A stretch of 64,000 bases of DNA from Microbacterium psychrotolerans (lineage in GTDB: Bacteria; Actinomycetota; Actinomycetes; Actinomycetales; Microbacteriaceae), in contig NZ_JAVFWO010000004.1 of the NCBI RefSeq assembly GCF_031085295.1, positions 248,001 to 312,000 of the forward strand, read 5' to 3'. Positions 20,288 to 35,872 of this stretch are shown here, in pieces. The notes under the pieces were generated by a model. That model had not been told where the DNA came from. It saw only the letters and a program-made list of their open reading frames with translations, and did no database searches. The number at the start of each line of letters is the position of its first letter. Within the stretch, counting starts at the first letter, position 1. The translations under genes and the position numbers were made by a program.

Positions 20288-20303
20288 ACGTCGGGCGGCA
20301 TCC

Positions 20304-20378: not shown

Positions 20379-20445
20379 GTACGCGGATGCCGCGCCCGGC
20401 CGCTGCCCACACCCGCAGACCCGCTTCACCGACGAGAGGACCGCG

Positions 20446-21576
20446 ATGCACGACGTCACCACCGAGAACCTGCAGGGACGCGCCGACGGGCGCCTGGACG
20501 AGATCGTCGCGCGCCTCGACGGCTTCCTCGCTGCCGACCCCGATCTCTCCTTCCAGGTCGCGGCGTTCCACCGCGGTGACCCCGTCCTCGACGCGTGGGG
20601 CGGGCCGCACCTGGTCGAGGACTCCGTCATGGTGCCCTACTCGGTCACGAAGAACACGATCGGGCTGTCCATCGGCCTCCTGGTCGAGCGGGGCGAGCTG
20701 GACCTCGATGAGCGCGTCGCCCACTACTGGCCGGAGTTCGCCGCGAAGGGCAAGGGCCGCGTCACTGTGCGGCAGCTGCTCTCGCACCAGGCGGGTCTGC
20801 CGCAGGCGACGCCGCCGCTGACGTGGGCGGAGCTGCTCGACGACCACGCCGCCGCCGACCGGCTCGCCGAGACGTGGGCGTTCTGGCAGCCGGGGAGCGC
20901 GTTCGGCTATCACGCCGTGACGATCGGCAACCTCGGCTCGGAGCTCGTGTACCGGGTCACCGGTCGCACGCTGCACGAGTTCTACGAGCAGGAGATCCGC
21001 GCGCCGTACGGCATCGACTTCTATCTGGGGCTTCCGCCCGCGCACGAGGCGCGCCGCGTCCCGGTGCTGCCGATGATCCGGCCGGTCTCCGACAAGACGG
21101 AGATGCAGCCGACCGCGCTCGGCCTGCACACCTGGGTCACCCCCGGCCCTCCCGTCGATCTCGCCAACGAGGAGGTGAGCTGGCGCTACGGCCATCCGGC
21201 GGGTTCGGGCACCGGCACCGCGCGCGGTCTCGCCCGCCTCTTCGCCGCCGCGACGACGGGGGTGGAGGGTGCGGCCCCGTTCCTCTCGGCCGACACCGTG
21301 GCGCAGATCGGCCAGCAGCAGGTGCACGGCTTCGACGAGGTGCTGGGCCTCCCCGACCGGGCGCACGCGATCATCTTCCAGAAGTCGACGGCGACGGTCC
21401 CCTTCGGCGGGCCGCGCGCCTTCGGTCACGACGGGGCGATGGGCGCGCTCGCCTGCGTCGATCCCGACAGCGGCCTCGCCTTCGCCTGGACCATCGCGCG
21501 CGGCGCATGGCCGGGCGGCGCGGACCCCCGGGCCGTCGCGCTCGCCCGCGAGCTCGGCGTCCTGCTCTCGTCCTGA
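20446..21576 (+). CDS. Serine hydrolase, beta-lactamase class C/EstB-like family
   Basis: 376 residues of the penicillin-binding-protein-like fold. 'SVTK' at 66-69 is the SxxK nucleophile motif, 'YHAV' at 155-158 takes the place of YxN, and 'GHDGAMG' near 342 takes the place of the KTG box. 'LLSHQAGLP' and 'FGYHAVTIGNLG' are characteristic of EstB-type esterases. There is no signal peptide, so a cytosolic esterase (for example of acetylated oligosaccharides) is more likely than cell-wall work. ATG 20446 has GAGAGGA six bases upstream. It sits between GH3 and GH43, which suggests de-esterification of plant oligosaccharides. Confidence 0.85.
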   Translation: MHDVTTENLQGRADGRLDEIVARLDGFLAADPDLSFQVAAFHRGDPVLDAWGGPHLVEDSVMVPYSVTKNTIGLSIGLLVERGELDLDERVAHYWPEFAAKGKGRVTVRQLLSHQAGLPQATPPLTWAELLDDHAAADRLAETWAFWQPGSAFGYHAVTIGNLGSELVYRVTGRTLHEFYEQEIRAPYGIDFYLGLPPAHEARRVPVLPMIRPVSDKTEMQPTALGLHTWVTPGPPVDLANEEVSWRYGHPAGSGTGTARGLARLFAAATTGVEGAAPFLSADTVAQIGQQQVHGFDEVLGLPDRAHAIIFQKSTATVPFGGPRAFGHDGAMGALACVDPDSGLAFAWTIARGAWPGGADPRAVALARELGVLLSS

Positions 21577-21609
21577 ACCCGCCCCGCCCGCCCGAACCCG
21601 GAGCACCCC

Positions 21610-23124
21610 GTGACCACGCTGTACAACCCCCTCCTCAACGGCTTCCACCCCGACCCCAGCGTCGTCGCGGTCGACGGCGTCTACTACCTCGCCACCTCGA
21701 CGTTCGAGTACCTGCCGGGCATCCCGATCCACCGCTCCACCGACTTCGAGTCGTGGGAGCTGATCGGGCACGTCGCCACGCGTCCGGGGCAGCTGGCCGT
21801 CGAAGAGGTGCCGACGGCGGGCGGGGCGTGGGCGCCGACGATCCGCCACCGTGACGGCGTCTTCCACCTCGTCATCACCGACGCGATGGGGCGCGGCATG
21901 CTGCACTTCACCGCGACGGACGCCGCCGGCCCGTGGAGCGACGGCGATCTGATCCGCAAGGCCGACGGATCGGGCTCGATCGACGGCATCGATCCCGACA
22001 TCGCGTGGGATGCCGACGGCACGGTGTACATCACCTTCTCGGGCCTCCTGCTGGGCGGCGAGCAGGCCGGGCAGCATCTCGGCATCCAGCAGGTGAAGGT
22101 CGACCTCGACAGCCACCTCGCGCTCGAGGAGCCGCGCTCGCTGTGGTCGGGCACCGGCGGCGGCTTCCCCGAGGCACCGCACCTGTACGAGGTGGACGGG
22201 CGCTGGTACCTCATGATCGCCGAGGGCGGGACCGAGCGCGGCCACGGCATCTCGATCGCGCGCGGGGACTCGCCCGAAGGACCGTTCGAGACCGCCCCGC
22301 AGAACCCGCTGGTCACCGCGCGCGGCACCACGCGTCCGGTGCAGAACACCGGTCACGGCGACCTCGTGGTCGGGCCCGACGGCGACTGGCTGTGCGTGCT
22401 GCTGGGCGTCCGACCGCGCAGCATGACGCGCGCGTTCTCCGCTCTCGGTCGCGAGACGTTCGTGACGCCCGTGCGCTGGGAGGCCGACGGCTGGCCCGCG
22501 ATCGACGCGGTGCTGCTCAACCCCCGGCCCGGCACGCGCGTCGAGATCGGGTTCGCGCCGGATCGCGAGCTCGACGGCGAGTGGATCGCCGTGCGCGCAC
22601 TCCCCGCTGCCCACGCGGACCTGACCTCGCGGCCGGGCTGGATGACGCTCCGCGCCGATGGATCGACGCTCGACCAACCGCGACCCGTCTTCGTCGGGCG
22701 CCGCCAGGAGCACCTCACGCACGCGGTCACGGTGACCATGGACGTCACCGCAGGCGTCGGCGGGCTCGCCGTGCGCTACGACGAGCGGTTCCACGTCGAG
22801 GTCGAAGCGGGCGGCGGCGAGATCGTCGGGCGCGCCTGCATCGGCGGGCTGGTGCAGGAGTGGCGCTCGCCGTTCGGCGGCGGCACGCTCGAGCTCCACC
22901 TCGAGTCGCGCAAGCCCGCGCCGGCGCAGGGCTTCCCGCGCACGAGCGACGTCTTCCACCTCGGCGCGACCGTCGACGGCGAGCGCGTCGAACTGGGCGA
23001 GGTCGACGGCCGCTTCCTGTCGTCGGAGACCACCGAGTCCTTCACCGGCCGCGTCATCGGCGTCTACGCCGTCGCCGGCGAGATCGCCGTCGAGCGCTGG
23101 ATCGCCGAGGGCGACGACGACTGA
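21610..23124 (+). CDS. Glycoside hydrolase family 43 (beta-xylosidase/arabinofuranosidase-like)
   Basis: 504 residues. The five-bladed propeller (about 1-300) shows the family triad: base D15 in 'FHPDPSV', pKa modulator in 'GIDPDIAWD' (D128/D130), and acid E188 in 'FPEAPHLY'. 'ATSTFEYLPGIPI' is typical of the xylosidase subfamily. The last 190 residues form the beta-sandwich usually fused to these enzymes. No signal peptide, so it acts on imported xylo- or arabino-oligosaccharides. The start is a GTG at 21610, 33 bases after the serine hydrolase stop. Confidence 0.92.
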   Translation: MTTLYNPLLNGFHPDPSVVAVDGVYYLATSTFEYLPGIPIHRSTDFESWELIGHVATRPGQLAVEEVPTAGGAWAPTIRHRDGVFHLVITDAMGRGMLHFTATDAAGPWSDGDLIRKADGSGSIDGIDPDIAWDADGTVYITFSGLLLGGEQAGQHLGIQQVKVDLDSHLALEEPRSLWSGTGGGFPEAPHLYEVDGRWYLMIAEGGTERGHGISIARGDSPEGPFETAPQNPLVTARGTTRPVQNTGHGDLVVGPDGDWLCVLLGVRPRSMTRAFSALGRETFVTPVRWEADGWPAIDAVLLNPRPGTRVEIGFAPDRELDGEWIAVRALPAAHADLTSRPGWMTLRADGSTLDQPRPVFVGRRQEHLTHAVTVTMDVTAGVGGLAVRYDERFHVEVEAGGGEIVGRACIGGLVQEWRSPFGGGTLELHLESRKPAPAQGFPRTSDVFHLGATVDGERVELGEVDGRFLSSETTESFTGRVIGVYAVAGEIAVERWIAEGDDD

Positions 23125-23187
23125 CGGATGCCGCGCCCGTGGCCACCCGGGTCCAAGCCCGGCCCCGGGCGCCGTTCGCAGGTCGCA

Positions 23188-23220
23188 ACACGCGGCATCC
23201 GACCCGCCGTAGCCGCGTGT
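23188..23220. terminator. Inverted repeat between convergent GH43 and nucleoside-hydrolase-like genes
   Basis: ACACGCGGC at 23188-23196 pairs with GCCGCGTGT at 23212-23220 across a 15-base loop. The position between two converging genes fits a bidirectional terminator, although no T run is present. Confidence 0.5.
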
Positions 23221-23264
23221 CGTGACACCCGAACCCCGAGCCCCGAAGGGAGACGGGCGGGACG

Positions 23265-24728
23265 CTAGGGGGCGGTGACGGTGAGGATCACGCGCTGGTA
23301 CGCCTTGAGCGGGTGCTCGCCGGCGTCGTCCGAGGCCTCGGCGATGACGTGGATCGTGTCGCCCGGCCGTGCGTCCACCGGGACGCGCACGGCAGTCGCC
23401 GAACCTTCGGCGGCGTCGAGCACGGCATCCGCCTCGCACGTCCCCGCCTCGCGGTAGACCCACCAGCGCACCCGCACGGCGTCGCCGTCGGGATCGTCCG
23501 CGACCGCGGTCAGCGACACGTCGCCACCGGCCGGAACTCCGAGGTCGGTGCCCTGCTCGATCCGCAGCCGCGGGTGGTGGTTCGCCTCTTCGTACCGGGC
23601 GGCGACGCTCCAGCGCAGCCGCGCGGCGAAGTCGGCCTGCGCGTCCGCGAACCAGCGGGTGACGGACGCCTCGTCGCCACCGCGACCGAAACCGGAGTCC
23701 GCGATGGCCCACGTATCGGCGCCGTCGTCGGTGCGCACGGCGAGGCCGCCCCAGCCGCCGAACGCGGGGTGCTCGTGACTGCGGAGCCCCGGCACGAGCA
23801 GGTTCAGCATGTTCGTGGTGTCGCCCTCCGAGATCCACTCCCCCGCCGGCTGCGGGTCCATCCAGACCTGGTAGCCGAGATCGCGGAGCTCCTGCGCCGT
23901 GTGTCCCGACAGGTGGAAGTAGTCGGTGACGTCGCCCGGCACCATCTGGCGCCCGTCGCCCCACACGCGGTACAGCGCGCCGAGGGGCCCGGCGCTGGTG
24001 ACGTTCTCACGCATCCAGTCGGCGCTCAGCAGGCGGTGGTCGGCGGCGGGGACGGTGCGGCGCGCCATGTAACCCCATGCCAGCGTGGCCACTTCCACCA
24101 CGCGGATGCCGGGCCAGCCCTGTGCGATGTACTCGTCGTAGCTGGCGTCCTGGGAGGCGAACTTGGTGATCACGGCCTTCGCCGAGACCTCGGCGCGCAC
24201 CCTCTCCCAGTCGTCCGACCCGCCGAAGCGCTCCTCGATGGAGAGGAGGGCGCGGGCGACGGTGCTGGGCCCCGCCCACAGCTGCAGGAACACCGGACCG
24301 GGACGGTCGTCCAGCAGCGCGTCGGCGATGAGCCTCGAACCGGGCGACTCCTCGGACATGTCGCCCTCGAACGCGACGTTGCCTTCGCGGATCACCGACC
24401 GCAGCCGCTCGGGGCTCGGGTAGCGAGGATCGTGCACGACCAGGTTCGGGTGCACCTGCGCATACGCGTCGACCGCGTCGTCGATGAACCTCTCGCCGGG
24501 CGCCCACCGCCACGAGGTCTGCGGCTCGTCGTACTCGCGGTCGGGGAGGAAGAACGTCGTGCCCGCCCCGTCGCCGCGCCAATGGAACCGGCTGCTCGCG
24601 TAGATCAGACCCTCGATCTCGAGCTCGTTGCTGTACAGCAGCAGCCGGATCATCGAGTTGAGGTCGTCGAGCTCGGGATCCGCGGTGATGATCGTCCGCG
24701 GCCGCGCCGCGGTCGTCGTGGGGGTCAT
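23265..24728 (-). CDS. DUF1593/Sde182-type nucleoside-hydrolase-like protein
   Basis: 487 residues. The N-terminal 310 residues match the DUF1593 group, a nucleoside-hydrolase-like domain also found in the cellulose-binding protein Sde182: 'ITADPELDDLNSMIRLLLYSNE' in part keeps the DxxxDD metal-site pattern, followed by 'GLIYASSRFHW', 'QLWAGPSTVARAL' and 'ISEGDTTNMLNL'. The last 90 residues are a beta-sandwich ('VSLTAVADDPDGDAVRVRWW' in part). No signal peptide is seen. It starts inside the stop of the upstream nucleoside hydrolase (ATGA). The reaction is not established for this family. The neighbourhood suggests cleavage of a furanosyl bond. Confidence 0.82.
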   Translation of the reverse strand: MTPTTTAARPRTIITADPELDDLNSMIRLLLYSNELEIEGLIYASSRFHWRGDGAGTTFFLPDREYDEPQTSWRWAPGERFIDDAVDAYAQVHPNLVVHDPRYPSPERLRSVIREGNVAFEGDMSEESPGSRLIADALLDDRPGPVFLQLWAGPSTVARALLSIEERFGGSDDWERVRAEVSAKAVITKFASQDASYDEYIAQGWPGIRVVEVATLAWGYMARRTVPAADHRLLSADWMRENVTSAGPLGALYRVWGDGRQMVPGDVTDYFHLSGHTAQELRDLGYQVWMDPQPAGEWISEGDTTNMLNLLVPGLRSHEHPAFGGWGGLAVRTDDGADTWAIADSGFGRGGDEASVTRWFADAQADFAARLRWSVAARYEEANHHPRLRIEQGTDLGVPAGGDVSLTAVADDPDGDAVRVRWWVYREAGTCEADAVLDAAEGSATAVRVPVDARPGDTIHVIAEASDDAGEHPLKAYQRVILTVTAP

Positions 24729-25771
24729 GAAACGCCCCCCTGCCACCGCTCGAACTCGGCGAGCTTCAGGTACATGTCCTCGAACATCAGCCGCGTGTCG
24801 ACCCAGGTGTAGACCCGCATCGGGCGGGCGCCGGCGACATCGCTGTAGGCCCCGTCCTCGCCTAGCGCCGGCGTCGGCCGCTCCACGTACCGGCTCGACG
24901 ACGGATCCGGCTCGAACACCGACTGCAGCGCGGTGAGCAGCACCAGCGGCGAGTCGCCGAGGGCGTACGTCTCCGACGCGCCACCCAGGTGCGGGGCGAC
25001 CATCGCGCACACGAAGGCCACCTCGTCGTAGAGGTAGCGTCCGAGCGGACCCGCCGCCGCCACGCGCATGCGCAGCTCGGCATCCGACACCAGACACTGC
25101 CGGTAGACGTCCCGGGGCACCTGCCACAGCGGGATCGTCGAGTCGTTGAACACGACCTGCCCGGCAACCGGGTCGATGAGCAGGTTGTACTCGATCGCCA
25201 TGGGGTTCGGCGGCGGCACGGCGAGGCCCTCATGCTCGCCGCCGCCGATCCACACGAGTGTCAGGCGCTCCGCGATGCGCGGCTCGGTCAGAAATGCCGA
25301 GGCGATGTCGGTGAGACCGCCGCCGGCGACGTAGAACAGGGGGCTCGAGACGTCGTCCCGCAGGGCCTCGGCGATGATGGCGTCGACGGCCGGCGCAGGA
25401 CGCGGGGTCGAGCGGTCCTGCAGCGGCTCATCCGCCCCGGCGACGATGACCTCGGTCGACGTGAGCCCCATGCGTGAGAAGACGTCGCGGACCACCGCCT
25501 CGGCGTTCTGCGCGCTGCGGCCGGAAGGGTCGAACGGGTCGTCCGCGCGCAGGTGCGAAGCCACCACGATTCGGATGTCGACGCTCGGCGAGAGCAGGTG
25601 ATGCACGAGCTGGTAGAGGTCGTCGGGGTCGCCCGCGAAGTCGTTGTCGATGATGACGCGCGCACGCGGCCCGCCGACGGGCGGGATCTGCTGCCAGGGC
25701 GTCTCGCCGAGGCTCCACCGGTTCGGCGGGCTGTCCGCCGGGCGGGTGCTCGCGCTCGGAATCTGCGTCAT
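24725..25771 (-). CDS. Inosine-uridine-preferring nucleoside hydrolase family protein
   Basis: 348 residues. 'IIDNDFAGDPDDLYQL' near residue 40 is the family calcium-binding DxDxxxDD cluster, and 'ADEPLQD', 'YVAGGGLTDIA' and 'NLLIDPVAGQVVFN' follow the usual order. Classical members hydrolyse the N-glycosidic bond of ribonucleosides. Here the gene is coupled to a DUF1593 gene, and an operator-like site shared with the apionate operon lies at 25820-25838, so the true substrate could be another furanoside. ATG 25771 has AAGGGAAG about 7 bases upstream. Cytosolic. Confidence 0.85.
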   Translation of the reverse strand: MTQIPSASTRPADSPPNRWSLGETPWQQIPPVGGPRARVIIDNDFAGDPDDLYQLVHHLLSPSVDIRIVVASHLRADDPFDPSGRSAQNAEAVVRDVFSRMGLTSTEVIVAGADEPLQDRSTPRPAPAVDAIIAEALRDDVSSPLFYVAGGGLTDIASAFLTEPRIAERLTLVWIGGGEHEGLAVPPPNPMAIEYNLLIDPVAGQVVFNDSTIPLWQVPRDVYRQCLVSDAELRMRVAAAGPLGRYLYDEVAFVCAMVAPHLGGASETYALGDSPLVLLTALQSVFEPDPSSSRYVERPTPALGEDGAYSDVAGARPMRVYTWVDTRLMFEDMYLKLAEFERWQGGVS

Positions 25772-25819
25772 CGTCGACTTCCCTTTCGCCGCGGCGTCAC
25801 GAACGATCTCGTCGGCAAC

Positions 25820-25838
25820 TGTAACACCGGTTGACCAA
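25820..25838 (-). promoter_or_regulatory. GntR/FCD-type operator, site 3 (nucleoside hydrolase operon)
   Basis: Read on the minus strand the site is TTGGTCAACCGGTGTTACA. It shares TTGGTCAACCGGT with 31171-31183 and GGTCAACCGGT with 27952-27962. It lies 49 bases upstream of the nucleoside hydrolase start, next to a possible -10 box TACAGT. This ties the two nucleoside-hydrolase-like genes to the same regulator. Confidence 0.72.
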
Positions 25839-25874
25839 TCCCGACGGCTCGCGCGACGCGACGACGTGCCCCGG

Positions 25875-27125
25875 TCAGCGCGGCTCGCGGACCCCGACCC
25901 TCTCGAGGTGCGCGTTCGTGAAGCGTCCGTCGGGGTCGAGACGCTCGAACACCGCACGCGCGTCCGCCAGACGCGGGTGGACGCGCTCCATGGCGGCACG
26001 GTCGAAGCCGTGCAGCTTGCCCCAGTGCGGCCGGGCGTCGAACGGCTCGAGCGCCGCCTCGATGCGCCCGAGGGCTGCGGCGACCTCGTCCGGGTGGTTG
26101 AACCAGGTGAAGTGGATGATCACGACGTCGCGACGGTAGGCGGGGCTCAGCCACAGCTCGTCGGCTGCGGCGGTGCGCAGCTCGGTCCAGATGAGATGGG
26201 GACGGATGCCGTCGCCCAGGGCCCGCACCGCGTTCAGCGCGGCGGGCGCATCGGCGCGGGCGACGAAGTACTCGCTCTGGATCTCGTCGCCGAACGACGG
26301 CTGGGCGTCCAGGCGGAAGTGCGGCAGTCGCAGCATCCACGGCCCCGGGACCCCCGCGAGCTCGGTGACGTTGTCCTCGACTCCGAGCGGCGAGTCGCCG
26401 GTGAGCGCGCGGACGCCGTCGAAGATCGTGTCGGGCACGACGTCGTCGTCGGTGTCGAGGCGCGTCTTGATCCACACGTAGCCGACCGACGGCTCCTCCC
26501 ACCGCGAGAACACCGAGACGCTGTAACCCGCAGAGGTGAGCTCGTCGTAGTGCGCAAGCGCGGCATCCCAGCTGACTCCGGTGTAGATGTCCTGCCGGAC
26601 GCGGAAGGCGGGCTCGATGTCGAGGGTCAGCGACACGACGATGCCGTACGCGCCGAGGCCGACGACGAGCGCGTCGAAGTCGGCGTCTCCGCGGCGCACC
26701 TCGCGGAGCTCGGCGTCGGCGCCCACGTAGCGCAGGGCGCGGACGGACGCCGAGAGCACGGGGTTCGCATCGCCCGACCCGTGCGTGCCGGTCGCCGTCG
26801 CGCCGCCGACGTTGATATGCGGAAGCGAGCCCATGTTGCGCAGCGCCCAGCCGCGGTCATCGAGCCACACCGCCAGCACCCCGTAGCGGATGCCGGCCGG
26901 CACGGTGACCGTCTGCGCGGCCTCGTCGAGCTCGAACTCGGCCGCGAAGCCGGTCACGTCCACGAGCGTCCCGGTGGTGTCGGGGAGGTCGGTGAACGAA
27001 TGGCGTGTACCCAGCGCGCGGACGCGCCCGGGCTCGCGGAGCACCCGCTGCACGTCGTCGATCGACGTCGCGTCGACGATCCGCGGCGCGGCGTACTCGT
27101 AGGTTCCGGCCCAGTTGCGCGCCAT
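25875..27125 (-). CDS. Alditol oxidase-like FAD-linked oxidoreductase
   Basis: 416 residues, the usual length for alditol/xylitol oxidase (AldO). FAD-binding domain motifs: 'ALGTRHSF' (the histidine position linked to FAD in AldO), 'GWALRNMGSLPHINVGGA' and 'TATGTHGSG'. The C-terminal substrate domain of the arabinono-lactone oxidase type ends with 'HWGKLHGF' and 'PDGRFTNAHLERV'. It should oxidise a polyol C1 hydroxyl to the aldose with O2 as acceptor. ATG 27125 has AAGGAGG seven bases upstream. It follows the GntR gene by 45 bases on the same strand. Whether its substrate is a branched polyol such as apiitol is only a guess. Confidence 0.87.
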   Translation of the reverse strand: MARNWAGTYEYAAPRIVDATSIDDVQRVLREPGRVRALGTRHSFTDLPDTTGTLVDVTGFAAEFELDEAAQTVTVPAGIRYGVLAVWLDDRGWALRNMGSLPHINVGGATATGTHGSGDANPVLSASVRALRYVGADAELREVRRGDADFDALVVGLGAYGIVVSLTLDIEPAFRVRQDIYTGVSWDAALAHYDELTSAGYSVSVFSRWEEPSVGYVWIKTRLDTDDDVVPDTIFDGVRALTGDSPLGVEDNVTELAGVPGPWMLRLPHFRLDAQPSFGDEIQSEYFVARADAPAALNAVRALGDGIRPHLIWTELRTAAADELWLSPAYRRDVVIIHFTWFNHPDEVAAALGRIEAALEPFDARPHWGKLHGFDRAAMERVHPRLADARAVFERLDPDGRFTNAHLERVGVREPR

Positions 27126-27170
27126 GGCGCCTCCTTCACTGCTCGATACGGGCACTGCTCGCTACGGGGC

Positions 27171-27908
27171 TCAGGGAGCGGCTTCTGCGGCGAGGCGCTG
27201 GGAAGCGGTCGCCATGTGCGTCGCCATCGCCGAGGCGGCGGCATCCTCGTCCCCCGCCTCGATCGCCCGAAAGACGGCCCCGTGCTCGTCGATCGCGATG
27301 CGGGCCTCGGCGTCGTCATGAACCGCTCGATCGGCGTACACCTGCAGCAGCGAGCGCACGACGTGCAGCAGGTCGACGAGCGTGTCATTGCCGGCGGCGG
27401 TGGCCAGCGCGTTGTGGAAGTCGAGGTCGGCGCGGGCGAAGGACTTGAGGTCGCTGACGCCGCTGCGCATGCGGGCGAGCGAGCCCGACAGCGAGGACAG
27501 ATCGGATGCCGCAGCCCGACCGGCAGCGAGGCGGGCGACGTAGATCTCGAGCCCCGAGCGCAGCTCGAGCAGCTCCGCGGTGTTCTTGCTGCCGATGAGC
27601 AGCCCCCACCGCAGCGTCTGCGGCAGCAGCTCACTGGCGGTGCCGCGCAGGTACGTGCCCGAGCCCGGACGGACGTCGACGATGCCGAGGATCTCCAATG
27701 CGGCGAGCGCCTCGCGCACCGCGGATCTGCCGACGCCCAGGGTGGACGCGAGCTGGCGCTCGGGCGGAAGCCTCGTTCCAGCCTCGAGATCGCCGCTCGT
27801 GAACAGGTCCATGAGCCGGCGAGCGACCTCCGACACCGGCGTCCCGCTGGGCAGCGCGCCGAGCGCGGCAGTGATCTCGGCCGAGCGGTCGTCGGGATAG
27901 GCGGGCAT
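27171..27908 (-). CDS. GntR family regulator, FCD (FadR) type
   Basis: 245 residues. The N-terminal winged helix is clear: 'GTRLPPERQLASTLGVGRSAVREALAAL' in part ('LPPERQLASTLGVGRS') and 'VRPGSGTYL'. The C-terminal FCD domain has the metal-site order 'LDFHNALATAAGN', 'DEHGAVFRAI' and 'ATHM'. FCD regulators usually sense small organic acids, which fits a sugar acid such as D-apionate. It is divergent from the binding-protein gene at 28054, with an AACCGGTT site between them. It is therefore the best candidate to bind all three sites at 25820, 27952 and 31173. Confidence 0.9.
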   Translation of the reverse strand: MPAYPDDRSAEITAALGALPSGTPVSEVARRLMDLFTSGDLEAGTRLPPERQLASTLGVGRSAVREALAALEILGIVDVRPGSGTYLRGTASELLPQTLRWGLLIGSKNTAELLELRSGLEIYVARLAAGRAAASDLSSLSGSLARMRSGVSDLKSFARADLDFHNALATAAGNDTLVDLLHVVRSLLQVYADRAVHDDAEARIAIDEHGAVFRAIEAGDEDAAASAMATHMATASQRLAAEAAP

Positions 27909-27943
27909 GCGAACAACCTACGGCAGTCGCGGCATCCGCGGGA

Positions 27944-27972
27944 TTGCTTTCGGTCAACCGGTTTGTCAGACT
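27944..27972 (+). promoter_or_regulatory. Promoter with GntR/FCD-type operator, site 1 (orphan binding protein)
   Basis: TTGCTT at 27944-27949 and CAGACT at 27967-27972 are spaced by 17 bases, and the spacer holds CGGTCAACCGGTTTGT. The operator GGTCAACCGGTTTGTCA (27952-27968) is identical over 17 bases to 31173-31189. Binding inside the spacer would block RNA polymerase directly. Confidence 0.75.
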
Positions 27973-27995
27973 GTCGACAGGCGACGATGGTCGCC

Positions 27996-28024
27996 TTTCT
28001 CACGGGTTCGTGAGAAAACGTTTC
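27996..28024. promoter_or_regulatory. Palindrome and LacI-type half-sites in the leader of the 28054 gene
   Basis: TTTCTCACG at 27996-28004 pairs exactly with CGTGAGAAA at 28009-28017 around a four-base centre. It runs into GAAAACGTTTCC at 28013-28024, whose AAACGTTT core resembles LacI-family operators and the two sites at 49484 and 49529. Both lie downstream of the predicted promoter, so they could act as a roadblock or as an mRNA hairpin. Confidence 0.5.
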
Positions 28025-28053
28025 CTGACGCTCGATGACGAGAGGCGATCACG

Positions 28054-29367
28054 ATGAAGTTCCGGAGCAGGAAGCTCATGGCGGGCACGGCGGGGGTGGC
28101 ACTGGCGGCCCTGGTCGGACTGACGGGATGCGCCTCCGGCGCGCCGGCCGGCACGCAGCCGACCCTCGACCCCGACGAGGAGGTCTCGATCACCTTCACG
28201 TTCTGGGGCAACGACGTGCGCGCCGAGCTGTACAACGAGGCCATCGCGGTCTTCGAGGAGCAGCACCCCAACATCGACGTCGACATCATCTTCCTGGCGC
28301 CCACGGACTACTGGGAGAAGCGGCAGATCGAGGCCGCCGGCTCGGGGCTGCCCGACGTCGTGACCATGGACCTGGCGTACCTGCGGCAGTACTCGCAGAG
28401 CGGGTCGCTGCTCGACCTCGAGCCCTATCTCGGCACCATCATCCAGACCGACGCGATCGATCCGCAGGTGCTGTCGGCCGGGGTCGTCGACGATGTCACG
28501 ACGGCCGTGCCCCTCTCGACGAACTCGTGGGGCATGTTCCTCAACACGACGCTGCTCGACCAGCTCGGCGTCGAGGCCTTCACCGACGGCACGTGGGAGG
28601 ACTACTACGACTGGATCGCCGAGGTCAGCGACGCCGGGAAGGCCGCGGGCGTCGACGTGTGGGGCGGCGTGGACCCGACCGGACGCATCGAGAACTTCGA
28701 GCTGCAGCTGCGCGCCGAGGGCGACAACCTGTTCGACGAGGACGGCACCCCCGGCTTCGACGAGGAGCGGCTCGCGGAGTTCTGGGACTCCGTCTCCACT
28801 CAGCGCGACGCCGGCCAGCTGGTCCCGCAGCAGCGCATCGCCGAGGTGCAGCCGCTGACGGCGTTCGACAGCGCGCTGAGCGCCAGCGACGCGACGTGGG
28901 ACAACACCGGCGCCGGGTTCCTCGCCAACCTGGGCGAGGGCTACGACATCCAGCTGATTGCTCCGCCGCTCTCTGTGGAGGACGGCAAGGATCTGTACCT
29001 GAAGGCCTCGCAGATGTACTCGATCGCCTCGAACTCGGAGCACCCGGCTGCGGCGGCGACGCTGATCGACTTCCTCATCAACTCGCCCGAGTCGGGTGAG
29101 ATCTTCGGCACCAACCGAGGTCTCCCCGCCTCCGAGACGGCGCGGGAGTCCGCCGACCTCGACGAGCTGAGCCAGACCATCGCGGACTACGAGGCATCGA
29201 TCGCCGACCGTCTCGGCGCCGCGCCGCCGGTGCCGATCGTCGGCTACGGCTCGCTGCACGAGAAGTTCCGCGAACTCGGCGAGGAGCTGAACTTCGGGAC
29301 GATGACCGTCGACGAGGCCGTGACGCAGTTCTTCGCCGAGATGGACGTCGTCGTCAGCAGCCAGTAG
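28054..29367 (+). CDS. Extracellular sugar-binding lipoprotein, family 1 (orphan)
   Basis: 437 residues. Signal peptide with lipobox 'LTGC' near residue 26, then the family-1 solute-binding fold: 'ITFTFWGNDVRAELYNEAIAVFEEQHPNI' in part ('FWGNDVRAELYN'), 'EAAGSGLPDVVTMDLAYL' and 'VPLSTNSWGMFLNTTLLDQLG' in part. Members deliver mono- or oligosaccharides to carbohydrate ABC transporters. No permease gene is adjacent: the next genes are an unassigned enzyme and an MFS transporter. It may dock on permeases encoded elsewhere, for example those at 54251-56049. Promoter site 1 puts it under the GntR/FCD regulator. Confidence 0.88.
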   Translation: MKFRSRKLMAGTAGVALAALVGLTGCASGAPAGTQPTLDPDEEVSITFTFWGNDVRAELYNEAIAVFEEQHPNIDVDIIFLAPTDYWEKRQIEAAGSGLPDVVTMDLAYLRQYSQSGSLLDLEPYLGTIIQTDAIDPQVLSAGVVDDVTTAVPLSTNSWGMFLNTTLLDQLGVEAFTDGTWEDYYDWIAEVSDAGKAAGVDVWGGVDPTGRIENFELQLRAEGDNLFDEDGTPGFDEERLAEFWDSVSTQRDAGQLVPQQRIAEVQPLTAFDSALSASDATWDNTGAGFLANLGEGYDIQLIAPPLSVEDGKDLYLKASQMYSIASNSEHPAAAATLIDFLINSPESGEIFGTNRGLPASETARESADLDELSQTIADYEASIADRLGAAPPVPIVGYGSLHEKFRELGEELNFGTMTVDEAVTQFFAEMDVVVSSQ

Positions 29368-29433
29368 CGACGGTCGTGCGGGGCGGGCTGTCGCGCCCGC
29401 CCCGCACTTCGTCACCGACCACAGAGGAGTCCC

Positions 29434-31119
29434 GTGGCCGAATCCGCTCCCCTTCCCGCCGCTCTTCCCGCCTCGCCGGCTCCCCGGCCGTCTCTCGGCA
29501 TCCAGGGACCGGTCGTCGCCTTCCAGGACCCCTGGACCGGCGACGCCTCGGACGCGATCATGCGCACGGGCACCGGCATCCCCATCCCGTCCCAGGATCC
29601 GGCGCCGACTCCGGGAGAGTTCGTCGCGGCGCTGCGCGAGCTGGGCGCCGACTTCTACGTGCACCACGTTATCCCGACGGTGCACGACCACACCGCGCTG
29701 CTGCGCGACCTCGACGATGCCGGGATCGACGTCGTGCTGGGCAACGAGTACGGCAACATCAACGGCCCGTACGTCGAGGGCACCAACCGCCACGACCTGC
29801 CGCTCGACCTGCTGCGGGATGCCGCCGCCTCGGGCCGCCTGGCCGGTGTGCTGTACGACGAGCCCGAGCACCTGCAGATCCACGCCGACCAGTACCGCAC
29901 CGACGCGCACCTGCCCCACTTCGGGCAGACCGACGGGCTCGGCGCCGAGGAGGCGATCGCCGTGATCGACACCACGGTCCGCGGCATCGTCCGGGATGTC
30001 GACGCCGCCGTCGCCGACTCGGGAGGCGGGAGTGTCCCGGTGCTCGCCGAGCAGGTGTTCCCGGTGATGTTCCACACGCTCGCGCGGGCCGGGATGACTC
30101 CGGCGCCCAAGGTCATGAAGGAGTCCTTCCAGCCGCTGCAGCTCGCGACCGCGCTCGGCGCGGCACGGCAGTACGACCGCGAGCTCTGGATCTGCGCCGA
30201 CCTCTGGGGTCCCGACGTGGGGCCATGGCTCACGCGCGCGCCCGGCTTCCCCGGCCATTCCCCCGCCGAGTTCGCCTCCGCCCTGCGGCTCGCCTACCTG
30301 TTCGCGCCGACCCGGCTGTTCGTCGAGAACATCGACGTGCTGGTGCGCCATCGCGGCGCGGGAGCGTTCGAGCGCACCGCCCACGGCGAGGTGTGGCAGG
30401 AGTTCGTGCGCGACTTCGTGCCGCGGCATCCGCTTCGCTGGAGCCACCGCGACGCACGCGCCGACATCGCCCTCGTCCACGCCGACGACAGCGACTTCGG
30501 ACGCGGCGAGCGCCCCTTCGGCAACCGCGCCGCGACGGCGCCCGCTGCGGCGGGCAGCGTCTTCGGGGCGTGGCACGCTCTCAGCCACGGGCAGCTGCCC
30601 GGCCACGGCAGCTGCCTGCACATCCCGGGCTATGACTTCCCGCGTCATCAGCTCAACGGGATCGAGCGGTCGCGGTTCCCGCTCGACGCGGGAGCGACCG
30701 AGCAGACCCGTCTGCACGGCCTCTTCCAGGCGACGCGGAACGTGCTCGTCTTCGATGAGCTGGTGCGCCCCGACCAGCTCGCGGATGCCGGCCTGATCGT
30801 CGTCGCCGGCAGCCGCCTGCCCGGAGCGACGCTGGACGCGCTCCGGGCGCGAGCGGACGCCGGCGCGACGGTGCTCGTCGCCGCGTGGCTGTACGGCGGC
30901 GAGCACGCGAACAGCGAGCGCGTGGGGCGCGGGCGGTGGATCGTCTACGAGAGCTTCGACGATTCCGACGCACAGGAGGCGATCGCCGCTCACGCCGGCG
31001 CGGCCGACGTGTGGACCCAGCGCTTCGCCGATGTGGAGGTGCGGATCCGCGCCACCAGCCCCGGCGGCGAGACGCTCGACTTCGAGATCGCGGACGCCCC
31101 GCACGATCGGATCGACTGA
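29434..31119 (+). CDS. Unassigned protein, glycosidase-like (TIM barrel plus Rossmann-like domain)
   Basis: 561 residues that I cannot place in a named family. GTG start at 29434 with AGAGGAG upstream. The pattern of strands and helices in residues 25-350 suggests a beta/alpha barrel: 'ADFYVHHVIPTVHDH', 'IDVVLGNEYGNINGPYVEG' in part, 'GVLYDEPEHLQIHADQY' and 'ELWICADLWGP'. 'YDEPEH' and 'GNEYGN' offer acidic residues in the places used by clan-A glycosidases. Residues 440-530 ('GLIVVAGSRLPG', 'GATVLVAAWLYGGEHA') look like the flavodoxin-like domain found after GH42-type barrels. No signal peptide. It lies 66 bases after the orphan binding protein, so a cytosolic glycosidase for its ligand is a fair guess. 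Confidence 0.72.
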   Translation: MAESAPLPAALPASPAPRPSLGIQGPVVAFQDPWTGDASDAIMRTGTGIPIPSQDPAPTPGEFVAALRELGADFYVHHVIPTVHDHTALLRDLDDAGIDVVLGNEYGNINGPYVEGTNRHDLPLDLLRDAAASGRLAGVLYDEPEHLQIHADQYRTDAHLPHFGQTDGLGAEEAIAVIDTTVRGIVRDVDAAVADSGGGSVPVLAEQVFPVMFHTLARAGMTPAPKVMKESFQPLQLATALGAARQYDRELWICADLWGPDVGPWLTRAPGFPGHSPAEFASALRLAYLFAPTRLFVENIDVLVRHRGAGAFERTAHGEVWQEFVRDFVPRHPLRWSHRDARADIALVHADDSDFGRGERPFGNRAATAPAAAGSVFGAWHALSHGQLPGHGSCLHIPGYDFPRHQLNGIERSRFPLDAGATEQTRLHGLFQATRNVLVFDELVRPDQLADAGLIVVAGSRLPGATLDALRARADAGATVLVAAWLYGGEHANSERVGRGRWIVYESFDDSDAQEAIAAHAGAADVWTQRFADVEVRIRATSPGGETLDFEIADAPHDRID

Positions 31120-31164
31120 CGCCCCGCGGGCTCGGATCGATGGAGGCTCGGCATCCGCACCGGC

Positions 31165-31193
31165 TTGCAATTGGTCAACCGGTTTGTCACAAT
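31165..31193 (+). promoter_or_regulatory. Promoter with GntR/FCD-type operator, site 2 (apionate operon)
   Basis: TTGCAA at 31165-31170 and CACAAT at 31188-31193 are spaced by exactly 17 bases, and the spacer is the operator itself. The stretch 31173-31189 is identical to 27952-27968, and the geometry relative to the -35 and -10 boxes is the same. The MFS start codon follows 45 bases later. Confidence 0.78.
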
Positions 31194-31238
31194 GGTGCGG
31201 TCAACCACCTCGATCACCGTCGATGAGCAGGAGTCACC

Positions 31239-32654
31239 GTGGACCACAATCAGACCGTCGCCGACGCGCCGCCCGTCGCGCGCTCCGCGATCCGAAAGGT
31301 GTCGACGCGCCTCGTGCCGTTCGTGGCGCTGATGTTCTTCATCAACTACCTCGACCGCACCGCGATCGGCTTCGCCGCCCCCAACGGCATGAACGAGGAC
31401 CTCGCCCTCAGCGCCGCTCAGTTCGGGTTCGCGTCGGGCGTCTTCTTCATCGGCTACATCCTCCTCGAGGTGCCCTCCAACCTGGCCCTGCACAGGTTCG
31501 GCGCGCGGCGCTGGCTCTCCCGCATCATGGTCAGCTGGGGCATCGTCGCGCTGCTGTTCACCTGGGTGCAGAACTTCGAGCAGCTCGTCGTGCTGCGCTT
31601 CCTGCTCGGTGTGGCCGAGGCCGGATTCTTCCCCGGGGCGATCCTCTTCCTCAGCCTCTGGGTGCCCGCGCAGTACCGCGGTCGCATCCTCATGCTCTTC
31701 TACCTGGCGCAGCCCCTCACCACCGTCATCGGCGCCCCGCTCGCCGGCTGGCTCATCCAGCAGCACGGCGCCCTCGGGCTCGAGGGCTGGCGCTTCATGT
31801 TCCTCGGCGTCGCTGTCCCCGCCATCGTCGTGGGCGTCATCGCGTGGTTCTACCTCAAGGACAAGCCGGCCGACGCGAAGTGGCTGACGCGCGACGAGCA
31901 GGTCTGGCTCACCGACGCGCTGCAGAAGGAGACGTCCGCGACGCAGAAGAAGGAGCACGGCCACGTCTCGGCGCGCTTCGCTTTCAAGAGCGGCCGTGTG
32001 TGGGTGCTGTCGTTCATCTACTTCGGCTTCATCTACGGCCTCTACGCGCTCGCGTTCTTCCTGCCGACGATCATCGAGGGCTTCCAGTCGCAGACGGGCC
32101 AGACCTTCGACACGCTGCAGAAGGGTCTCATCACCGCGATCCCGTACCTGCCGGCTGCGATCGTCATGTACTTCTGGTCGCGCGACGCGTCCAAGCGGGG
32201 CCTCAAGACCTGGCACATCGCAGGGCCTGCGATCGCCGGTGCGATCAGCATCCCGCTCGCCCTGTTCGCCGGCTCACCCGCGGCGACCATCGCGGTCATC
32301 ACTGTCACGGCGTGTGCGATCTTCGCCGCCCTGCCGAACTTCTGGACGCTGCCCACCCGCTTCCTCACCGGGGCCGCGGCCGCGGCCGGCGTCGCGCTCA
32401 TCAACACGATCGGCAACCTGGCGGGCTTCTCCGCGCCGTTCGTCACGGGCGCCGTGCACGACTGGACCGGAGGGTACGAGGTGCCGATGTTCATCGTCGG
32501 CTTCGTCATGCTGGTGTCGGCCGTGCTCATGGTGCTGCTTGCCCGCAGCAACCGCATCAACCCGGTCACGGTCGACGAGACGACGACCGACGACACCGCC
32601 GTCGACGCGGAGGCTCTGCGGGCCGCGGCCGACCCGAAGGGCGACGCGCGATGA
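31239..32654 (+). CDS. MFS transporter, anion:cation symporter (ACS) type, probable sugar-acid importer
   Basis: 471 residues with about twelve membrane segments. 'LMFFINYLDRTAIGFAAP' and 'GYILLEVPSNLALHRFGARRWLSR' (cores 'NYLDRTAIGFA', 'EVPSNLAL') are diagnostic for the ACS family, which includes hexuronate and galactarate importers. 'AEAGFFPGAILFLSLWVP' is the matching third-helix motif. ACS carriers move organic anions, so import of D-apionate or its lactone-derived acid is consistent with the genes that follow. GTG start with AGGAG six bases upstream. Its stop overlaps the next start (ATGA at 32651), so it heads the operon. Confidence 0.88.
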   Translation: MDHNQTVADAPPVARSAIRKVSTRLVPFVALMFFINYLDRTAIGFAAPNGMNEDLALSAAQFGFASGVFFIGYILLEVPSNLALHRFGARRWLSRIMVSWGIVALLFTWVQNFEQLVVLRFLLGVAEAGFFPGAILFLSLWVPAQYRGRILMLFYLAQPLTTVIGAPLAGWLIQQHGALGLEGWRFMFLGVAVPAIVVGVIAWFYLKDKPADAKWLTRDEQVWLTDALQKETSATQKKEHGHVSARFAFKSGRVWVLSFIYFGFIYGLYALAFFLPTIIEGFQSQTGQTFDTLQKGLITAIPYLPAAIVMYFWSRDASKRGLKTWHIAGPAIAGAISIPLALFAGSPAATIAVITVTACAIFAALPNFWTLPTRFLTGAAAAAGVALINTIGNLAGFSAPFVTGAVHDWTGGYEVPMFIVGFVMLVSAVLMVLLARSNRINPVTVDETTTDDTAVDAEALRAAADPKGDAR

Positions 32655-34414
32655 CGCGCCTGTGGAACGAGCCCGCCGATTTCGCGGACGAGATGATCGA
32701 CGGCTTCGTCGCGGCCAACGGCCGCTACGTCCGCCGCGTCCCGGGCGGCGTGGTGCGCAGCACCACCTCGCCGGCAGGGCAGGTCGCCGTCGTGATCGGC
32801 GGCGGGTCGGGCCACTACCCCGCGTTCGGCGGGCTCGTCGGTCCGGGGCTCGCGCACGGTGCGGCGATGGGCAACCTCTTCGCCTCGCCGTCGACGCAGC
32901 AGGTGCACGCGGTGGCGAAGGCCGCCGACAACGGTGGCGGCGTGTTCTTCACCTACGGCAACTACGCCGGCGACGTGCTCAACTTCGACGCGGCGCAGGA
33001 GCGGCTGCGCGCCGAGGGCATCGCGTGCGAGACCGTCACGGTGACCGACGACATCTTCAGCGCCACGGCCGACGAGAAGCACAAGCGCCGCGGCATCGCC
33101 GGCGACCTCACCGTGTTCCGCATCGCCGGGGCCGCCGCGGCGGCGGGCGCCGACCTCGCCGAGGTCACACGGCTCGCGCAGCACGCCAACGAGCGCACGC
33201 GGTCGTTCGGCGTCGCGTTCACCGGCTGCACACTGCCCGGCGCCGACGACCCGCTGTTCACCGTTCCCGAAGGCCGGATGGCGATCGGGCTCGGCATCCA
33301 CGGCGAACCCGGCATCGACGAGACGGGCATCCCCACGGCCGACGGCCTGGCGGAACTGCTCGTCGAGAAGCTGCTCGCCGAGGTGCCGGATGGGGTCGAC
33401 GCGGTCCGGGGGGCCCGCGTCGTCCCCATCCTCAACGGCCTGGGCTCGCTGAAGTACGAGGAGATGTTCGTCGTCTACCGGCGGATCGCCCAGCTGCTGA
33501 CCGACGCCGGCATCGAGATCGTCGACCCGCACGTGGGCGAGTACTGCACGAGCTTCGACATGGCCGGCACGTCGCTGACGCTGTTCTGGCTCGACGACGC
33601 ACTGGAGTCGCTGTGGGAGACCCCGGTCGACACCCCCGCCTACCGGCGCGGCTCGGTCGCTCCGCAGGAGCGGTCGGACGCAGCGACCGCGGCGGATGTC
33701 GCCGATGTGATCGAGCCCGGCGACGCGGCATCCCGTGCCGCTGCCGGGACCGTGCTGGCCGTCGTGCGCACGATCGCCGACACCGTCGACGCCCACGTCG
33801 ACGAACTCGGCCGGCTGGACGCGATCGCCGGCGACGGCGACCACGGCATCGGCATGCAGCGCGGCTCGCACGCCGCGCTGGCCGCCGCGGCGACCGCGGT
33901 GGATGGCGGAGCCGGCGCCCGCACCACTCTGGCGCGGGCGGCGGACGCGTGGGCCGACAAGGCCGGTGGCACTTCCGGCGCCCTCTGGGGCGTCATCCTG
34001 AACGCCGTCGCCGCGAAACTGGGCGACCAGGGCCGCCCCGACGCCGCAGCCGTGGCTGCCGGCGTCGCCGCCGGATCACGAGGCGTCACCGACTACGGCA
34101 AGGCCGAGGTCGGCGACAAGACGCTCGTCGACGCGCTCGTGCCCTTCACCTCGACGCTCACCCAGGCCGTCGACGCCGGCGCCCGGCTGACCGACGCGTG
34201 GCGGACGGCAGCGGATGCCGCCACCCGCGCCGCCGCTGCGACCGTCGACCTGCTGCCCCGCATGGGTCGCGCCCGCACGCACGGTCAGAACAGCGTGGGC
34301 ACGCCCGATCCCGGCGCGATCTCGCTCGCGCTGATCGTGACCGCCATCGCAGACACACTCGCCGTCGACACGGCCGAGACCTCAATGAAGGAGAACGCTC
34401 ATGGCACAGCCTGA
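32651..34414 (+). CDS. lerK: Dihydroxyacetone-kinase family protein, probable L-erythrulose kinase
   Basis: 587 residues with fused DhaK (about 1-340) and DhaL (about 365-587) domains, the ATP-dependent single-chain type. '[12 protein letters not shown]' is the DhaK phosphate region, and H217 in 'GIHGEPGI' is the histidine that binds the ketose covalently. In DhaL 'AGDGDHGIG' supplies the magnesium aspartates (D395, D397), followed by 'GGTSGALWG'. Proteins of this type were characterised in mycobacterial tetritol pathways as L- or D-erythrulose kinases. The next two genes are the matching isomerases, so L-erythrulose 1-phosphate is the expected product. Plain dihydroxyacetone phosphorylation cannot be excluded. 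Confidence 0.85.
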
Positions 34415-34886
34415 GACCGCCCAGCCCCTGCGCATCGTGATCGGCGCGGACGACGCCGGCTTCGACTACAAGGAGATCCTCAAGAAGGACCTCGAGCAGA
34501 ACCCCGGCGTCGCCTCCGTCATCGACGTCGGCGTGGACGCGGAGGGGCACACCCCGTACCCCAAGGTCGCGATCGAGGCGGCGCAGCAGGTCGCCGCCGG
34601 CACCGCCGACCGCGCCCTGCTGATCTGCGGCACGGGCCTGGGCGTCGCGATCGCGGCGAACAAGGTGCCCGGCATCCGCGCCGTCACCGCCCACGACTCT
34701 TACTCCGTCGAGCGCGGCGTGCTCTCCAACAACGCGCAGGTGCTCACGATGGGCCAGCGCGTCGTGGGCGTCGAGCTCGCCCGACGCCTGGTCCGCGAAT
34801 GGCTGACCTACCGCTTCGACACGTCGTCGGCCTCGGCCGACAAGGTCGCCGTCATCGACGAGTTCGAGAACACGGGCTCCTGCTGA
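34401..34886 (+). CDS. derI: RpiB/LacAB-type sugar-phosphate isomerase, probable D-erythrulose-4-phosphate isomerase
   Basis: 161 residues. '[12 protein letters not shown]' at the N-terminus, the active-site cysteine C76 in '[17 protein letters not shown]', and '[19 protein letters not shown]' in part are the family motifs. The start is at 34401 with AAGGAG eight bases upstream, 14 bases inside the kinase gene. Ribose-5-phosphate isomerase B and tetrulose-phosphate isomerases share this fold. Because it lies between an erythrulose-type kinase and a TPI-like gene, conversion of D-erythrulose 4-phosphate to D-erythrose 4-phosphate is the best reading. The product enters central metabolism. Confidence 0.85.
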
Positions 34887-35872
34887 TGAGCGGGCACGAA
34901 CTCCGCAGGGACGCACCGATCTCGCAGGATTCCGCGCGGATTCTGCGAGAATCGCGCGACTCTGCGGAGTTCGTGCACCCGCGGGTCACGGTCGGGGTGA
35001 GCCTGAAGACGTACTTCGGGCACGAGCGCGCCCGCACGTGGTTCGCCGATGTGGCGCGCCGCGCGGCCGCGCATCCCGCCGTGACCGCCGGCGACGTGCG
35101 GCTCTTCGTCATCCCCACGTACCTGCAGATCCCTGCGGCGCTCGAAGCTTTCGCAGGCACCCCGGCGCTGATCGGCGCACAGGACGTCTCGGAGTTCGCG
35201 CCCGGCGCGTACACCGGAGAGGTCACCGCGGCCGAACTCGCCGAGGTCGGGGTCGCGGTCGCCGAGATCGGGCACGCCGAGCGCCGCCGCCTGTTCGACG
35301 AGACCGACGCCGTCACCGCCGCCAAGGCCGCCGCCGCGCTCGCGCACGGCATCACGCCGGTGCTGTGCATCGGCGAGGCCGAGCGCCTCGGCAGCCCCGC
35401 TGCGGCGCTGGCGAACGTCGAGCAGCTCGCCGCCGACCTCGACGGCGTGCCGGCCGGCCCGGTCATCGTCGCGTACGAGCCGGTGTGGGCGATCGGCGCG
35501 GCCGAGCCCGCCCCCGACGAGCACATCGCCACCGTGACCCGCTCCCTCCGCGGCGCGCTCGACGCCGACCCGGCGCGCGCCGGCAGCGTCGTGATCTACG
35601 GCGGGTCGGCGGGCCCGGGCCTGCTCACCCGCCTGGGCGAGAGCGTCGACGGCCTGTTCCTCGGCCGCTTCGCCCACGACCCCGACGCCCTGTTCGCGGT
35701 GCTCGACGAGGCCGGCGTTCTCGCGTCCGCCCGCACCCGCACCGCACCGTCAGATCCGGCGAAACCCCAGTGGATGGACGAGACCGTGGGAGAACCCCAG
35801 GGTCTCGTCCCCGCGCCCGGGTCTCACGGAGAGCTCGGGTCCCACGGCGAGACGCCGGGGGCGAGCGCATGA
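34886..35872 (+). CDS. lerI: TPI-like isomerase, probable L-erythrulose-1-phosphate isomerase, with repeat-derived ends
   Basis: 328 residues from an ATG that overlaps the DerI stop (TGATG). The triosephosphate-isomerase core starts near residue 34. K41 in 'GVSLKTYFG', H130 in 'IGHAERR' and E198 in 'AYEPVWAIG' match the catalytic trio, while the usual asparagine before the lysine is serine and loop 6 is changed, as in tetrulose-phosphate isomerases. Residues 4-31 are encoded by a REP-like palindrome (34894-34976). Residues 284-328 form a tail that overlaps a second palindrome (35776-35810). A GTG at 34997 would give a plain core without the N-terminal extension. It should convert L-erythrulose 1-phosphate to D-erythrulose 4-phosphate. 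Confidence 0.85.
   Translation: MSGHELRRDAPISQDSARILRESRDSAEFVHPRVTVGVSLKTYFGHERARTWFADVARRAAAHPAVTAGDVRLFVIPTYLQIPAALEAFAGTPALIGAQDVSEFAPGAYTGEVTAAELAEVGVAVAEIGHAERRRLFDETDAVTAAKAAAALAHGITPVLCIGEAERLGSPAAALANVEQLAADLDGVPAGPVIVAYEPVWAIGAAEPAPDEHIATVTRSLRGALDADPARAGSVVIYGGSAGPGLLTRLGESVDGLFLGRFAHDPDALFAVLDEAGVLASARTRTAPSDPAKPQWMDETVGEPQGLVPAPGSHGELGSHGETPGASA
34894..34976. repeat. REP-like palindrome, family A, copy 3, inside the lerI reading frame
   Basis: A perfect 15-base inverted repeat pairs GCACGAACTCCGCAG (34894-34908) with 34962-34976, and a second, inner pair GATTCTGCGAGAATC lies at 34939-34953. The core matches the copies at 451-526 and 20304-20378. It starts 8 bases after the DerI stop and is read as residues 4-31 of the TPI-like protein if ATG 34886 is used. 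Confidence 0.75.
35776..35810. repeat. Palindrome with GGACGAGACC arms in the lerI 3' end
   Basis: GGACGAGACC at 35776-35785 is exactly complementary to GGTCTCGTCC at 35801-35810. The CGAGACC/GGTCTCG core and flanking CCCCAG runs resemble the larger palindrome at 53479-53543. It encodes part of the C-terminal tail of the TPI-like protein, outside the catalytic core. Confidence 0.6.

Follow-up and report, generated by a model that had tools for sequence, protein, structure and literature searches.

The stretch of DNA analyzed here (64,000 nucleotides of Microbacterium psychrotolerans, contig NZ_JAVFWO010000004.1, positions 248,001 to 312,000, hereafter the window) holds at 27171-27908, on the minus strand, the gene of a GntR/FCD regulator of the FadR subfamily, proposed here to be a repressor (Pfam GntR PF00392, 5.2e-18; FCD PF07729, 2.1e-25), and around it three copies of a putative operator. 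The first, TTTCGGTCAACCGGTT (27948-27963, plus strand), is located between the regulator and the gene of a solute-binding protein, the second, AATTGGTCAACCGGTT (31169-31184, plus strand), precedes a transporter and an apionate-type operon, and the third, GATTGGTCAACCGGTG (25825-25840, minus strand), precedes a pair of nucleoside-hydrolase-like genes. An earlier note on this DNA had claimed that sites lie before these three units and that the only FCD regulator of the area borders one of them. The gene positions at all three sites support the first claim, and the second holds as well, given that of the 15 FCD matches in the genome only that at 27171-27908 is inside the window.

In that note the operator was given as a 17-mer, GGTCAACCGGTTTGTCA, identical at two positions and with a close copy near 25820 on the opposite strand. 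Scanning the window and the source genome (4,538,994 bases in 15 contigs) confirmed the exact copies at 27952-27968 and 31173-31189 on the plus strand and placed the close copy at 25820-25836 on the minus strand, with three mismatches; these are three matches in the window versus 0.08 expected from dinucleotide shuffles. Genome-wide, the 17-mer is exact only at these two positions and has no further copy with fewer than three mismatches, while the copies with three mismatches are the third site of the window and nine others, so that the frequent random copies that would speak against an operator were not found. What did not stand is the extent of the element: the sites are real, but the conserved unit is a dyad, and the TTGTCA end of the 17-mer belongs to the promoter and falls outside it. 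The dyad reads AYYGGT-CA-ACCGGT plus a weaker outer pair, 16 bp in all, with the CA dinucleotide as its symmetry axis (a center of two nucleotides). When only the dyads are compared, the third site roughly equals the other two in quality.

The conservation of this element was evaluated in 80 loci carrying orthologs of the regulator, which are the best 80 of 101. Its core, GGTCAACCGGT, is found 122 times in these loci, with 120 copies being intergenic in DNA of which called genes cover 1,405,384 of 1,541,539 bases. It is present in 79 of the 80 loci, and the remaining one (L065) carries a one-base variant instead. The reversed core has no copies in the loci, and 200 letter shuffles of the core gave a mean of 1.16 copies, with one shuffle at 41 (a mean of 0.96 excluding that one). 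The dyad pattern AYYGGTNNACCRRT occurs 101 times between genes and 3 times within them; when the center is widened to three nucleotides it occurs in neither, and with a center of one nucleotide it occurs only once, in a gene. Among the 44 core copies lacking TTG at the distance of a -35 box, base preference extends from three bases before the core (A in 80%) to one base after it (T in 77%). The core lies at most 400 nucleotides upstream of the regulator ortholog in 69 of the 80 loci, and five of the remaining 11 (L086, L088, L089, L091, and L094) carry it directly before a catabolic gene.

The regulator belongs to the FadR subfamily by its domains, with both the winged helix and FCD above cut-off. 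Residues D161, H165, H209, and H231, which we take to be the metal-binding residues of the FCD domain, are kept in 97% or more of the 60 regulator sequences aligned (out of 79 gathered), and solved relatives align with the regulator over this D/H/H/H part. According to PMC4494728, sites of the FadR subfamily consist of palindromic TKGT/ACMA boxes with a GT-AC distance of two or three nucleotides, the distance being two in several groups that include UxuR and GntR. The site described here agrees with this pattern, given that GT-CA-AC has a distance of two nucleotides and the left box is mostly TGGT, with the right box ACCG differing in its last base.

Regulator and site also occur together across the genus. 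Taking as orthologs those with at least 69% identity, and excluding FCD matches of 40-45% (G215, G505, and the second match in G474), the 198 genus genomes divide into 55 with both the ortholog and the 14-mer site TTGGTCAACCGGTT, one with only the regulator, one with only the site, and 141 with neither. Of the 57 genomes with the regulator, the site, or both, 55 thus have both (Fisher p of 8e-47, in a test that ignores relatedness), and 70 of the 77 genus sites are located within 25 kilobases (kb) of the regulator. A search of 396 family genomes gave 74 occurrences of the 14-mer, spread over 55 genomes and 24 of 85 genera. For all 67 sites outside the genus the flanking DNA was retrieved, making up 57 loci; 45 of these hold an FCD match of at least 200 bits, and at 60 of the 67 sites at least one regulon gene lies within 6.5 kb. 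For 21 of the 24 site-bearing genera the site is found near regulon genes, and in the remaining three (the genera of G237, G104, and G348) every site lacks a regulon gene nearby. The co-occurrence in the genus and the proximity of sites to regulon genes in relatives support the claim of the earlier note that the site probably links genes that otherwise look unrelated, and the adjoining FCD protein is the best candidate for the regulator of the three units. Some copies of the element in the source genome were rejected as regulon members, namely a core copy at C7:856526 and a variant at C10:553349 (L104, L105), and a dyad-like match at C10:342475 (L170), each inside a called gene. Since these copies are inside genes, the regulon of this genome is, at the thresholds used, the cluster in the window alone.

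The genes that follow the second site, all on the plus strand, encode a major facilitator superfamily (MFS) transporter, probably of a sugar acid (31239-32654; MFS_1, 4.8e-49; D-galactonate transporter model 4.2e-80, below its cut-off), a Dak-family protein proposed as L-erythrulose kinase (32651-34414; Dak1, Dak2; PRK14479, 4.9e-226), an RpiB-type protein proposed as D-erythrulose-4-phosphate isomerase (34401-34886; TIGR02133, 3.4e-59; the model for that isomerase gives 3e-46, below its cut-off), and an isomerase resembling triose-phosphate isomerase (TIM) (34973-35872; TIM, 8e-47). These are followed by a xylose-isomerase-like TIM barrel proposed as 3-oxo-isoapionate decarboxylase (35869-36663; AP_endonuc_2, 3.6e-19), which has the same neighbors on an Erwinia plasmid, a PGDH_C oxidoreductase proposed as D-apionate oxidoisomerase (36660-37526; PGDH_C, 1e-56), whose homologs cluster with annotated OiaX or RuBisCO-like protein, a short-chain dehydrogenase/reductase that is a possible apiose dehydrogenase (37535-38287), and a 612-residue protein proposed as D-apionolactonase (38394-40232), which has no match in Pfam or in the sequences of the Protein Data Bank (PDB) and has a 32% homolog inside a Rhizobium cluster. 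We presume the barrel to be OiaC-like, the PGDH_C protein ApnO-like, and the 612-residue protein ApnL-like. The resemblance to a D-apionate operon is at the level of families, with PGDH_C, TIM barrel, Dak, TIM, and RpiB in one gene string, and it is proposed that these enzymes act on D-apionate and its products. Apiose, which occurs as a furanoside, is a branched sugar found in the cell walls and glycosides of plants.

Gene clusters of other bacteria provide context for this assignment. On plasmid pRL1 of Rhizobium leguminosarum, homologs of the 612-residue protein and of the PGDH_C protein lie about 6 kb apart, near genes of a RuBisCO-like protein, a four-carbon acid sugar kinase, and a Gfo/Idh oxidoreductase. 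Also close by are dhaK, dhaL, a DUF2291/Rbs-type importer, and a FadR-family regulator. A Marivivens plasmid has its PGDH_C homolog close to a NanR-type regulator and to a gene bearing the annotation OiaX. FadR-type regulators sit in these two alphaproteobacterial clusters (L171, L173) with apionate-type genes. On the Erwinia plasmid, MFS, Dak, TIM, barrel, and PGDH_C genes are arranged in the order of the window. Within the 80 loci, a DUF2291/Rbs-type importer follows a core copy in L045, and the GntP-family permease gene at L072:10773-12194, as expected for sugar-acid uptake, stands behind a core copy; at the corresponding position, L067 has a gene similar to it in size and N-terminus. PMC11747546 describes a Rhodobacteraceae strain that grows on D-apiose and has a D-apiose gene set.

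Downstream of the first site, the extracellular solute-binding protein (28054-29367, plus strand; PF01547, 6.4e-24) has no adjoining permease genes and is paired with a 561-residue protein assigned to no family (29434-31119, plus strand), which is present in 8 of the 80 loci. This partner has no match in Pfam, NCBIfam, or PDB sequences, and its model (predicted local distance difference test, pLDDT, of 47.8) is too poor for a fold search. In all 8 loci it adjoins the solute-binding protein, and the two genes are flanked by core copies on both sides. A FAD-linked, lactone-oxidase-like protein (25875-27125, minus strand; ALO, 2e-19; FAD_binding_4, 2.1e-17) is probably co-transcribed with the regulator. 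Beside the regulon, at 17858-23124, there are genes labeled from sequence reading as GH3-like, beta-lactamase-like, and GH43-like (GH, glycoside hydrolase); their relatives recur in the 80 loci, and no core copy precedes them in the window.

Behind the third site, on the minus strand, lie NH1 (24725-25771), a divergent protein of predicted nucleoside hydrolase fold that is a candidate apioside hydrolase (PF01156, 1.2e-17, the only PF01156 match of the genome), and NH2 (23265-24728), a nucleoside-hydrolase-like protein of the Sde182 type (PF07632, 1.9e-61; PF21027, 8.3e-18; 2yhg, 1.1e-32). The NH1 model has a pLDDT of 88.1 and superposes on 1mas with a Z of 29.5 and a root-mean-square deviation of 2.7 over 271 aligned residues, which places it in the nucleoside hydrolase fold. 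NH1 keeps the E-x-N stretch and departs from the DxDxxxDD fingerprint, with five residues instead of three before DD in all 18 sequences that cover it (19 aligned). Gly272-Asp273, invariant in 19 of 19, aligns with the His-Asp of 1mas, so that NH1 does not have the His, Trp, or Cys before the last Ca-binding Asp. The roles of the fingerprint and of this His are described in PMC8910321, where some true nucleoside hydrolases also lack the residue, and Gly272 is therefore not decisive.

The link of such proteins to the operator is seen repeatedly in relatives. A core copy also precedes the orthologous NH gene in L016, L017, L019, L032, L033, L041, and L056. Seventeen NH1-type genes (at least 34% identity) are found in the 80 loci and, from reading of the maps and assuming co-transcription, seven are directly behind a core copy, three behind a copy and importer genes, two directly behind the regulator, and four at the far end of the apionate operon, with one (L026) having no core copy. 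Seven of the 77 genus sites lie away from the regulator, and five of these precede operons with a nucleoside-hydrolase-fold gene (PF01156 in L107, L109, L111, and L112; PF07632 in L108), at least four of the operons having transporter genes; this link is independent of synteny with the regulator. The five away-sites suggest that divergent proteins of this fold release apiose from apiosides. The other two away-sites are before a homolog of the 612-residue protein (L106) and inside a gene (L110). L106 is from a genus genome without a regulator ortholog that has kept the site there, and its neighbors match the left end of the window. At L108:9145-11235, a 696-residue protein with no Pfam match is encoded divergently from the operator-linked Sde182-type gene.

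These genes might instead act on nucleosides, as their fold would allow, so that the regulon would join two unrelated diets. Outside the genus, none of the 57 fetched family loci has a nucleoside-hydrolase gene near the site, indicating that apiose use does not require such genes; L059 (Quadrisphaera) has two nucleoside-hydrolase genes. The nucleoside diet is nonetheless unlikely, given the departure of NH1 from DxDxxxDD and its Gly272 where 1mas has His, and given that the nucleoside-hydrolase-like domain of Sde_0182, related to NH2, is reported in PMC8910321 to be inactive on nucleosides and to be possibly able to interact with furanose sugars. Taking the best PF01156 match of each genus genome, among the matches listed, weak matches (1e-9 to 1e-36) occur in 19 of 56 genomes with the regulator versus 6 of 142 without it (p of 1.4e-7), whereas strong matches show no such enrichment (23 of 56 versus 73 of 142, p of 0.21). 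With the Sde_0182 report and apiose being a furanoside, an apioside hydrolase is the simplest reading. It is about an even chance that PF01156 outliers (NH1 being one) and proteins of the Sde182 type (like NH2) form a new class of O-glycoside hydrolases that cleaves D-apiofuranosides and is co-induced with the pathway using the product. The absence of these genes from the 57 family loci counts against an apioside hydrolase and makes them an optional part of the regulon.

The position of the sites relative to promoters bears on how the regulator would act. The earlier note had placed two sites in the 17-base spacer of a promoter, and the letters of both plus-strand box pairs bear this out: TTGCTT (27944-27949) and CAGACT (27967-27972) in one (27944-27972), and TTGCAA (31165-31170) and CACAAT (31188-31193) in the other (31165-31193), each with a 17-nucleotide spacer and overlapping the operator. 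At the third site, the dyad is just upstream of a -10-like TACAGT. A simple scan of 23000-32000 with the sigma-70 consensus scored no promoter, which counts against these being promoters. In the relatives, 78 of the 122 core copies have TTG at the same distance and lie between TTGCAA-like and -10-like boxes; within these, TTG is followed by C (95%) and then by two A (92% and 86%), and the -10 box ends in T in 99%. Core copies less than 120 bp apart form 14 pairs: nine have a spacing of 20-23 bp and three of 32 bp, and the other two are 68 and 107 bp apart. Since spacings of 21 and 32 bp are approximately two and three helix turns, these pairs suggest cooperative binding. Some FadR-type proteins activate, and the 14 pairs would also suit an activator or dual regulator in place of a plain repressor; this is improbable, given that the dyad lies between -35 and -10 at the main promoters, which suggests steric repression. 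Least probable of all is that another regulator, for example of the LacI type, whose operators often have a central CG, binds the CCGG-centered palindrome AACCGGTT within the site: a LacI-family gene is present at 47540-48547, with similar genes in some of the 80 loci, but it lies about 16 kb from the nearest site, of the 56 site-bearing genus genomes 55 have an FCD ortholog, symmetry is strong around the CA center, unlike around ACCGGT, and the arm counts led to rejection of this palindrome as operator, given that of 198 intergenic ACCGGT in the 80 loci none has GGTCA on both sides, 120 have it on exactly one, and 78 on neither.

The reading that we prefer, and regard as very likely, is that the FCD protein is a dimeric, dyad-binding repressor of the apionate and nucleoside-hydrolase regulon that is released by an acid. 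The computed observations are the sites, the dyad and how well it is conserved, the co-occurrence, the linkage of the genes, and the fold predicted for NH1; from them we infer binding, repression rather than activation, the effector, and the enzyme activities. An FCD dimer would bind AYYGGT-CA-ACCGGT. At both plus-strand promoters, most of the gap from the -35 to the -10 box is taken up by the dyad, so that RNA polymerase would be blocked once the protein is in place. A pathway acid, with D-apionate as the most likely one, may then bind the metal-carrying FCD domain and free the DNA, and this release would switch on the binding protein and its 561-residue partner, the transporter and the apionate-to-erythrose-4-phosphate operon, the regulator itself, and NH1 and NH2, which probably free D-apiose from plant apiosides.

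Several points weigh against this reading. The dyad is imperfect, with ACCG in the right box rather than ACMA, and in copies free of an overlapping promoter its outermost pair is weak (A in 41%, T in 30%). Since the search was made with the core itself, selection fixes the inner positions, and only the count of the dyad pattern escapes that. One genus genome (G446) has the site before a lactonase-like gene and no regulator ortholog, and another (G470) has the regulator without the exact 14-mer. Co-occurrence by itself is not enough to identify this regulator, because the regulator is linked to the operon. Outside the genus, 7 of the 67 sites have no regulon gene nearby, two of them being in genes, one near a contig end, and one in a stretch without called genes. 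The Erwinia operon adjoins a different kind of regulator, and the effector is a guess from the pathway.

One repressor probably controls genes of apiose use through a nearly unchanged signal across many soil actinobacteria, which provides a testable regulator, operator, and gene set for apiose use in a large group of bacteria from soil and plants. As a repressor of sugar-acid catabolism of the FCD type, the system is of a known kind, while the hydrolase assignment would be new if true; this link is the surprising part, and it is optional. As a tool for genome searches, the operator picks out proteins of nucleoside hydrolase fold for which no substrate is known, suggesting apioside hydrolysis as their activity; if true, there would be an apiosidase family built on this fold, which could define a new enzyme family. 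In the open-access literature, searched by title or abstract start, no paper describing this regulator, operator, or hydrolase role was found.

Compared with known systems, the regulator resembles FadR-subfamily members such as UxuR, GntR, ExuR, DgoR, LldR, and NanR in having a winged helix and FCD domain, the D/H/H/H residues, and divergent genes. Its GGT-NN-ACC operator has the GT-AC distance of two nucleotides that PMC4494728 lists for UxuR and GntR. Unlike in those systems, the operator has a CA center and GG in the right arm, and the targets here are apionate-type genes. Nucleoside hydrolases (PF01156) and Sde182-type proteins (PF07632) share the predicted fold and the E-x-N stretch, from which the proteins described here differ by the altered fingerprint, the Gly in place of the catalytic His, and the operator link to apionate-type genes. 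Catabolic clusters for D-apiose and D-apionate were reportedly described by Carter et al. in 2018, and the window shares with such clusters the PGDH_C oxidoreductase, the homolog of the 612-residue protein, and a FadR-type regulator nearby, the Rbs-type importer with DUF2291 being common to the Rhizobium cluster and the relative L045. Unlike in Rhizobium, the barrel, the Dak kinase, and two isomerases replace the RuBisCO-like branch, as on the Erwinia plasmid, and unlike in the D-apiose and D-apionate clusters, nucleoside-hydrolase-like genes are added here.

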